NCBI RefSeq assembly: GCF_003353065.1
Contig: NZ_CP027806.1
Location: 3,554,501-3,618,500 of the forward strand
From: Cyclonatronum proteinivorum
GTDB taxonomy: Bacteria > Bacteroidota > Rhodothermia > Balneolales > Cyclonatronaceae
Direction of reading: 5' to 3'
Length of the DNA: 64,000 nucleotides
Shown: positions 27,988-57,315 of the stretch, piece by piece
How positions within the stretch are numbered: the first letter of the stretch is position 1
Layout of the letters: each line of letters begins with the position of its first letter
Notes under the pieces: model-generated
What the model saw: the letters and a program-made list of their open reading frames with translations, nothing else
The model's database searches: none
Told to the model about the DNA's origin: nothing
Position numbers and translations under genes: made by a program

Positions 27988-28040
27988 CGGGACACAGGGT
28001 TTGCACCCTGTGCTTTGGTATGCCGCGCTTTCAGCGCTGT
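27988..28040 (+). repeat. Two-hairpin intergenic repeat, first copy
   Basis: CACAGGGT-TTGC-ACCCTGTG (27993-28012) is followed by CTTTG and a second small hairpin GCGCT-TTC-AGCGC (28025-28037) after TGCC. A related unit lies in opposite orientation at 28158-28206. Repeats with a GCCCCAGCGGGGCGGCA core are, from memory, common between genes in many Bacteroidota and relatives. Confidence 0.6.
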
Positions 28041-55123: not shown

Positions 55124-55540
55124 ATCCTGTTCATCCTGTAATCCTAAAAATCCTGTTCAAAATGCAGCGAGGCCGGCAATCTGTAGTACACTTGCCATCA
55201 GGGTTTAGCGCAGCTTTGATGTATCGCATACCGGAGCCCTGTACCGCCAGATCCTTCGACTTCGCTGCGCTTCGCTCAGGATGACACGCTCGCCATGCGT
55301 CAAACGGCGCGGCAGGCCGCGCCGGGTTTTCAGGAAACGCCACTGTCATCCTGAGCGGAGCCTTAGCGCAGCGAAGGCGGAGTCGAAGGATCTCGTATTG
55401 AGGACTGCTATGACCGGCATGATTTCGTGTCCTGTCCCGGCAAAGGAGGTCCCTCACATGAATCCTTCATCAATACCACGGCTAAACAACTATCGGCGGC
55501 TTCGATTTTCCTCCTGCCAAACGATAACGGTTCGGGATGA
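55124..55540 (+). repeat. Long direct repeat, copy R1 (left of the IS110 element)
   Basis: About 417 bases nearly identical to R2 at 56816-57234, sharing TCCTGTTCATCCTGTAATCC at the left and ATAACGGTTCGGGATGA at the right. Inside is an inverted pair of the GATCCTTCGACT...CTCAGGATGACA sequence (55251-55287 and 55346-55393). The IS element begins right after GGGATGA at 55540. No coding function is supported; short frames here are random. Confidence 0.85.
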
Positions 55541-55553
55541 ACTGTATTAAAAG

Positions 55554-56532
55554 TCAAGCGGCCAGCGCCTTTTTTTCATCATAAACTGAATTGGTCATGG
55601 CGACTTCAAACACCTGTCTTACTAATTTATGTGCAACGGCTATCTGAGCAACTTTATGAGGTTTTCCTTTACTTCTTAAACGTTTATACAGGTTACCACA
55701 TGCGGGGTTATAGCGGCTCGCTGAGTAAGCGCACATATACAGCTGTTTTCGCACATAACCAGCCCCCATTTTGCTTATATGACCTTTGCCCTTTACGCTT
55801 GTACCTGACTGATACGGACTTGGCGCAATCCCGATATACGTACTCAGCTGCTGATGACTTTCAAAGCGCGTGAATCCGTCTGTTAAGACACATAACAGGA
55901 TTGCAGTAGCCCTGCCAACACCCGGAATAGTGGAAATTCTTTTGATTAAATCACCGTATTCTTCCTTGGCCAATTCATCCAATTTCCGCTCAACCTTTTT
56001 GAGTGAGTCACGCATGAATGTCAGACTTTGATCATTAATTCTCAGGGCAGCTTCACAGGCCTGCTCATCAAGACTGAAAGCATGGTTTTGATTTTCGACC
56101 TGGTTGATTTGCTTGAGTAGCATCTCCCGAACGGTGTTTAATTGCCGAATAGAGCGCGTATTCACCGGTCTGGGTTTCCACACCTGCAGATCTGCATGCA
56201 TTTTTAGGGCATAATCAGCGATCAGACGCGCATCAACCTGGTCAGTCTTGACCCGACTCATTTTGGCTTTGCAGTAGTTTTTGATCATTAGCGGATTAAC
56301 GACACTAACCTTAATATCCCTGTCGGTCAGAAAGATGGCCAGACCAAGAAAGTACGGACCGGTGGCTTCCATCACCACCCAGCTGTCCGGAGTTACTGCG
56401 TCGGCGAGCTGTTGCCAGCCTGAGGGTTCGTTAGCCGCTTTTTTGACTTTTTTTTGACCCGCTTTGCAGAAATCAAGGGTATCTTTTGAGACATCAACTC
56501 CGAAAAAAATCCATAATATTGTTATTTTTCAT
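55554..56532 (-). pseudogene. IS110-family transposase with frameshift in a T7 run near the start
   Basis: The protein would read MKNNNIMDF, then FGVDVSKDTLDFCKAG, with the first catalytic Asp in GVDVSK, and on through VVMEATGPYFLGLAIFL and KTDQVDARLIADYAL. The C-terminal transposase_20 domain shows STIPGVGRATAILLCVL and TYIGIAPSPYQSGTSVKGKGHISKMGAGYVRKQLY, with the catalytic serine expected there. On the minus strand the ATG at 56532 and the rest are in different frames: seven T occur where six would keep frame, about nine codons in. The downstream frame has no ATG before the first catalytic motif. Either the copy is inactive, slippage at the T-run restores the frame, or the run length is a sequencing error. 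Confidence 0.8.
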
Positions 56533-56549
56533 TTATGGTAATAATCATG

Positions 56550-56700
56550 AGGGACTCCATTAGCATATCCATCATTTATGCTGGCTCGAAGCCTTATGAA
56601 CTGTTCTTGCTTAGTGGAGTAAAGCGCGTTGGTTTCATCCCGAACGAGCTCGAAGCTCAATGACCGAAAGGCAGGGTACCAACGCGCTTTCACCTTCATG
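56550..56700 (-). ncRNA. Predicted IS110 bridge RNA
   Basis: Non-coding end of the element, read on the minus strand as the transposase. First loop: a 13-bp perfect stem (56621-56633 with 56678-56690) encloses TCATCCCGAAC (56635-56645), a GAGCT-CGA-AGCTC hairpin (56646-56658) and ATGACCG (56660-56666). The two outer segments match the insertion site, one complementary and one same-sense. Second loop: a stem ACTCCA/TGGAGT (56554-56559, 56615-56620) plus AGCA/TGCT encloses CATCATTTAT (56570-56579), a GGCT-CGA-AGCC hairpin (56583-56593) and ATGAACTGT (56596-56604), which match the element's own ends. This is the target-loop/donor-loop plan of published IS110 bridge RNAs. RNA ends are approximate. 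Confidence 0.75.
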
Positions 56701-56774
56701 TTTGCGTACAAGTTAAGATTGTTAGATTCTTATCCAAAACAGCTGATCGTTGCCGCTTAACTAATATATGATGA

Positions 56775-57234
56775 CCGGTTCGGGCTTGGGTTGTTTTAGA
56801 AGCCTGTTTGCACAACATCCTGTTCATCCTGTAATCCTACAAATCCTGTTCAAAATGCAGCGAGGCGGGCAATCTGTAGTACACTTGCCATCAGGGTTTA
56901 GCGCAGCTTTGACGTATCGCTTACCGCAGCCCTGTACCGCCGGATCCTTCGACTCCGCTGCGCTTCGCTCAGGATGACACGCTCGCCATGCATCAAACGG
57001 CGCGGCAGGCCGCGCCGGGGGTTGGGGAAAATGCCCCTGTCATCCTGAGCGGAGCCGGAGCGCAGCGTAGGCGGAGTCGAAGGATCTCGTATTGAGGACG
57101 GCTATGACCGGCATGATTCCGTGTCCTGTCCCAACGAAGGAGATCCCTCACATGAATCCTTCATCAATACCGCGGCTAAACAACTATCGGCGGCTTCGAT
57201 TTTCCTCCTGCCAAACGATAACGGTTCGGGATGA
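56775..57234 (+). repeat. Long direct repeat, copy R2 (460-bp tandem unit)
   Basis: Begins CCGGTTCGGGCTTGGG, runs through the part shared with R1 and ends GGTTCGGGATGA. The unit is followed directly by the start of another copy (57235), giving a period of 460 bases. It contains the inverted GATCCTTCGACT/AGTCGAAGGATC pair at 56942-56979 and 57038-57089. Confidence 0.85.
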
Positions 57235-57315
57235 CCGGTTCGGGCTTGGGTTGTTTTAGAAGCCTGTTTGCACAACATCCTGTTCATCCTGTAATCCTAC
57301 AAATCCTGTTCAAAA
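57235..57315 (+). repeat. Long direct repeat, partial third copy R3
   Basis: The first ~81 bases of the R2 unit repeated (CCGGTTCGGGCTTGGG to AATCCTGTTCAAAA), after which similarity stops. The R2/R3 junction contains the uninterrupted target of the IS110 element. A further inverted pair of the GATCCTTCGACT sequence follows at 57359-57403 and 57461-57501. Confidence 0.8.

Follow-up and report, generated by a model that had tools for sequence, protein, structure and literature searches.

The closest described systems are the bridge RNA system of IS621 (Durrant et al. 2024, PMC11208160; structures in PMC11208158) and the seekRNA of ISEc21 and its relative ISMch6 (Siddiquee et al. 2024, PMC11187229), and with these the general principle is already published. 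The seekRNA paper also raised, but did not confirm, the case of IS621 versions more than 95% identical with different targets (PMC11187229). The window analysed here, a stretch of 64,000 nucleotides, contains an IS110-group insertion sequence whose left non-coding end (LE) very probably (about 95%) encodes a bridge RNA that would specify both the insertion site and the element's own ends. This interpretation of the leader was first proposed in a sequence-only reading, and the guides, the core, the empty site, covariation and the recombinase family all support it as a predicted natural bridge RNA. The element consists of the following parts.

55541–56770, minus strand: IS110-group element (the same block in three full genome copies, and the empty site in the duplicate repeat)
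55554–56532, minus strand: recombinase gene (comparison of open reading frames with the sister copies, whose genes are uninterrupted)
56533–56769, minus strand: LE, encoding the predicted bridge RNA (fold; layout repeated in relatives)

The genome (4.29 Mb) contains three full copies of the element, which are the window copy, L002 (at 2639308) and L003 (at 608235), plus a left-end fragment, L004. The boundaries are ambiguous by the 4 bp TCAT (ATGA on the plus strand), which is present at both junctions, 55537–55540 and 56771–56774; one of the two TCAT copies belongs to the element as its core. In a domain search, the product of the intact L002/L003 gene contained PF01548 and PF02371 (DEDD_Tnp_IS110 and Transposase_20), and the intact sister recombinase matched the NCBIfam model 'IS110 family RNA-guided transposase' with a score above the cut-off. 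The solved structures of IS621 and ISCro4 are sequence relatives of the recombinase (phmmer E 8.8e-29 for IS621). The DEDD residues are conserved in the intact sister copy; in the window copy, a frameshift precedes the first D. The end layout is that of the IS110 group, with 237 nt of non-coding DNA upstream of the gene and about 13 nt downstream, the reverse of the IS1111 group, and long subterminal inverted repeats are absent (judged by eye), as in the IS110 group. At the level of sequence, the element has every defining feature of the IS110 group and of bridge RNAs that was tested. The genome has seven more IS110-type recombinase genes (L010–L016), about 29% identical to that of the window element, and one of these (L010) gave a weak match, below the cut-off, to a TIGR-Tas endonuclease model.

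Within the LE, the following features were located.

56678–56690, minus strand: 5′ arm of the closing stem of loop 1, ACCAACGCGCTTT on the plus strand (fold; pairs with the 3′ arm at 56621–56633)
56660–56666, minus strand: left target guide, RNA CGGUCAU, in the same sense as the left target (string match)
56646–56658, minus strand: small hairpin GAGCUUCGAGCUC inside loop 1 (fold; compensatory changes at all three aligned pairs in relatives)
56635–56645, minus strand: right target guide, RNA GUUCGGGAUGA, complementary to the right target TCATCCCGAAC (string match)
56596–56604, minus strand: left donor guide, RNA ACAGUUCAU, equal to the element right end plus core (string match; ACAGTTC invariant in 23 aligned sequences)
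56583–56593, minus strand: small hairpin GGCUUCGAGCC inside loop 2 (fold; compensatory changes)
56570–56579, minus strand: right donor guide, RNA AUAAAUGAUG, complementary at 9 of 10 positions to CATCATATAT at the element left end (string match)

The sequence-only reading had described two hairpins with internal loops, each in the order guide, small hairpin, guide. The minus-strand fold of the 237-nt leader agrees with this description, with a stem-loop at the 5′ end and a pair of hairpins whose large internal loops are stem-enclosed and each hold one small UUCG-type hairpin. The plus-strand strings quoted in that reading were recovered at their exact positions, for the target (TCATCCCGAAC at 56635–56645, ATGACCG at 56660–56666 and 56771–56777, GTTCGGGATGA at 55530–55540) and for the donor (ATGAACTGT at 56596–56604 and CATCATTTAT at 56570–56579, the latter matching the right end at 9 of 10 positions). 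The target loop precedes the donor loop, and in both the 5′ (left) guide is like the top strand and the 3′ (right) guide is complementary, so that one guide of each pair fits each strand, as had been proposed. This order and strand sense agree with IS621 (PMC11208160) and IS110-type seekRNA (PMC11187229), and the likeness to the published bridge-RNA plan was thus correctly recognised. The thermodynamic stability of the leader is ordinary (fold energy z −1.39), and because this signal is weak, fold energy was not relied on as evidence. Against Rfam, the leader matched no family at gathering score and no bridge-RNA family. Elsewhere in the window, at 27993–28038 (plus strand), an Acido-Lenti-1 RNA (RF01687), a small RNA of unknown function, scored above the gathering score.

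The insertion site and its unoccupied counterpart are as follows.

55530–55540, minus strand: right target half, TCATCCCGAAC (string match)
56771–56777, minus strand: left target half, CGGTCAT (string match)
57225–57237, minus strand: unoccupied target copy, CGGTCATCCCGAA, in the duplicate of the repeat holding the element

The target of the predicted window-copy RNA is CGGTCATCCCGAAC. At the joined insertion site, the match of loop 1 covers 7 nt of the left half in sense orientation and 11 nt of the right half in antisense. The two guides overlap in TCAT; since both junctions contain these four letters, they mark the exchange region. The element lies inside the first of two tandem repeat copies of about 460 bp each, and its flanks joined over the shared TCAT give a sequence found uninterrupted in the second copy, with the core at 57225–57237. 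Target, donor and empty site can therefore be read in one window, as first claimed. Insertion into repeats is sequence specific, all three insertions in the genome being in dispersed repeats with intact empty copies.

When the element-free window (about 125,500 site-strands) was scanned, the true site had 18 matched letters and tied for the best score with two other places, namely its empty duplicate and one unrelated place. With five shuffled RNAs, the match rose to 15 to 17 letters. When the site is taken as given by the insertion, the probability by chance is about 2e-5. The initial claim that the number of matching bases makes chance unlikely thus stands for a site specified beforehand, but the window match alone is not overwhelming, since an unrelated place also reaches 18. 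The relatives make the case far stronger.

L002 and L003 have the same sequence, which departs from that of the window copy at 17 positions (about 99% identity). Four of these 17 differences fall within the 45-nt first loop (Fisher p 0.0026), and loop 2 is unchanged across all three full copies. The right guide is GUCCGGGAUGA in L002/L003 versus GUUCGGGAUGA in the window copy, a T-to-C change, and the right target is TCATCCCGGA at the sister sites versus TCATCCCGAA at the window site. On the left, the guide is UCGUCAU (G lost) in L002/L003 versus CGGUCAU in the window copy, and the target is CCCGTCAT at the sister sites versus CCGGTCAT at the window site. The window guides match 7+11 letters at their own site and 5+8 at the sister site, whereas the sister guides match 6+10 at their own site and 5+8 at the window site. 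The sister target, CGTCATCCCGGA, occurs 77 times in the genome (0 for the reversed-letter control), and the window-type target, CGGTCATCCCGAA, occurs 10 times.

Most CGTCATCCCGGA sites form inverted pairs about 240 bp apart, as the ends of a genome-wide repeat of about 250 bp (e.g., L101:918-1750). This repeat often occurs in small tandem clusters, has a very stable branched fold (DNA fold z −5.8) and had no match in Rfam. The left-end fragment L004:1501-1608 (genome 3240712–3240819) is old, with 85% identity; it breaks off with the ..CTGTCAT of the left target guide, and CTCGAACG comes next. This joint could reflect a deletion between the guide-DNA TCAT and the right-junction TCAT, the guide DNA having been used in place of a left target, or it could be due to microhomology alone.

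Compared with L002/L003, the window copy has an extra A (run 56525–56529) and an extra T (run 56503–56509). These two +1 homopolymer insertions, located before the first catalytic Asp, put every ATG start out of frame with GVDVSK. Upstream of GVDVSK the reading frame contains only a stop and no standard in-frame start, and the first such start left is the GTG at 56378, beyond the first catalytic Asp. Having lost its in-frame start, the window copy probably travels as a passive passenger that only the recombinase of a sister copy could move. It probably cannot move unaided, unless the indels are sequencing errors or slippage bridges them. Neither this frameshift nor the existence of copies with other guides had been noticed in the sequence-only reading.

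These insertions speak for an alternative explanation, in which the family does have such a system while the window copy itself is a dead relic whose RNA is neither made nor used. The guides and target of the window copy still fit exactly, however, L002/L003 could supply the recombinase in trans, and the homopolymer indels could be sequencing errors; a relic is a substantial possibility, though less likely than not. A further reading, also short of even odds, is natural reprogramming within one genome. Here a few letters of the target loop would have changed, moving the target from CGGTCATCCCGAA (about 10 sites) to CGTCATCCCGGA (77 sites), or the reverse, with recombinase and donor loop constant, and the window copy would persist as a guide-bearing element dependent on the sister recombinase.

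A single-protein scan of the contigs of other genomes gave no match, while an alignment query gave 80 loci; viral contigs contained one partial relative. The relatives (the 80 loci and a further set) share the same layout, with one ACAGTTC about 80 to 120 nt ahead of the gene and a second directly behind it. Across 42 distinct loop regions, taken without selection, the right target matched its own loop over 4.6 nt, compared with 2.6 nt when permuted (0 of 100,000 permutations reached the observed value). A TCAT-core subset comprised 23 distinct loop regions from the window element, the sister type and relatives. This restriction was chosen after seeing the data (the TCTT type has its end placed differently), and the unselected test also gave 0 of 100,000. 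In the 23 regions, the right-guide match was 6.78 nt for the own target versus 2.87 nt permuted (reached in 0 of 100,000). The own match of the left guide was reached in 26 of 20,000 permutations; this covariation is weak because the matches beyond GTCAT are short. The right donor end matched its own loop 2 with 6.1, versus 3.35 for loops of other types (TCAT-core set), and the left donor guide ACAGTTC was invariant in the alignment of the 23 leaders. The alignment of relatives with their insertion sites, which had been suggested as a check, thus indicates that the first-loop guides change with the target. Relatives at different sites keeping one first loop would have spoken against a bridge RNA; instead, loop 1 varies with the target both in the genome copies and in the relatives.

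Structure is conserved as well. Compensatory changes were found at six of the eight predicted inner-hairpin pairs in the 23 aligned leaders, and in single-sequence folds loop 1 was stem-enclosed in 23 of 23 and loop 2 in all but one. RNAalifold gave the inner hairpins alone, because the outer stems lack a column-wise alignment. Relatives of the TCTTTGTT type (L023, L033 and others) fall off the TCAT-anchored boundary rule, with runs of 0 to 3 that lower the mean over all elements. The presumed reason is an element end situated further out, and this type was excluded from the final 23-region test. In this second subgroup, ACAG at the right end is followed by a conserved TCTTTGTT, which places its core and boundary elsewhere.

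Because guides and targets covary, two further explanations were rejected. Recognition by protein only, with the recombinase itself reading target and ends and the guide matches being by-products of captured flank, is very improbable: an element end could in principle hold captured target sequence, but across 23 distinct loop regions, taken from unrelated target sites, the matches keep to the same pair of loops and have opposite strand sense, and the published homologues require RNA (PMC11208160, PMC11187229). Chance complementarity of a low-complexity repeat to a structured leader, such as a translational attenuator, is the least credible of all. The unrelated window site with 18 matches might speak for it, but it is refuted at the family level by the own-versus-permuted test (0 of 100,000) and is opposed by the joint shift of guide and target between the sister copies.

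For the bridge RNA, the following course is proposed. Excision would join RE to LE, giving a circle, and a promoter would form across the joined ends. The transcript, if produced, would form a 5′ stem-loop followed by two loops. The first would bind the genomic target, pairing with both strands of CGGTCAT/TCATCCCGAAC, and the second the donor, pairing with both strands of ACAGTTCAT/TCATCATATAT at the circle junction. The RNA would bring target and circle together, and the DEDD recombinase would exchange strands at the shared TCAT. The predicted junction includes ACAGTTCATCATATAT, and two candidate promoter elements were identified in the joined sequence.

55552–55557, minus strand: TTGACT, candidate −35 of the junction promoter, which exists only in the joined-end circle
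56763–56768, minus strand: TATATT, candidate −10 of the junction promoter

The predicted joined ends, TTGACT-TTTAATACAGTTCATCA-TATATT, are promoter-like, with a 17-nt spacer. The integrated element has no such promoter, its candidate −35 and −10 being split apart. Bacteroidota relatives (L017–L039, L120–L199) have TAnnTTTG at the left end and TTG at the right end, with promoter spacing. TAnnTTTG with TTG is a promoter type known for Bacteroidota. The type of junction promoter seems to vary between hosts, TTGACT/TATATT in the Balneolales element versus TTG/TAnnTTTG in the Bacteroidota relatives.

The locus adds a complete, predicted natural bridge-RNA example from Balneolales in which target, donor and empty site are all readable. 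The window and sister copies, whose guides and targets differ in step, form a near-isogenic pair for testing the number of guide letters that suffices to retarget an IS110 element, and also trans mobilisation of a copy with a broken recombinase.

With IS621, the window element shares an LE-encoded RNA (predicted here) upstream of the recombinase gene, the arrangement of 5′ stem-loop, target loop and donor loop, LTG/LDG matching the top strand with RTG/RDG complementary, a core common to target and donor, a junction promoter (a candidate here) and repeats as targets. It differs in sequence, in its core (within TCAT, versus CT in IS621), in its right target guide (11 nt versus 4, with longer RTGs reported for other orthologues) and in its recombinase, which is related but distant (phmmer E 8.8e-29). 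The TCAT-core IS110 elements of Bacteroidota and Balneolales (L122 from a Balneolales MAG, 39% identity; L137 from Sphingobacterium sp. CZ-2) have the same leader plan, the ACAGTTCAT left donor and a GTCAT-containing left guide, but other right guides matched to other targets. Their left end is CCTATG or CGTAAG (TAnnTTTG promoter motif), whereas that of the window element is CATATATT. As in the ISEc21/ISMch6 seekRNA, an IS110-type element has a non-coding region upstream in which the bottom-strand match comes before the top-strand match, and natural redirection goes with altered guide bases. In ISMch6/ISEc21 this redirection is across genomes, between transposases 72% identical, whereas here it is found in one genome between copies about 99% identical. 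Judged by their sequences, the window and sister copies are a case of the kind raised for IS621, near-identical versions with different targets. What is new here is this within-genome switch of guide and target between copies about 99% identical, with the window copy carrying a frameshifted recombinase start.
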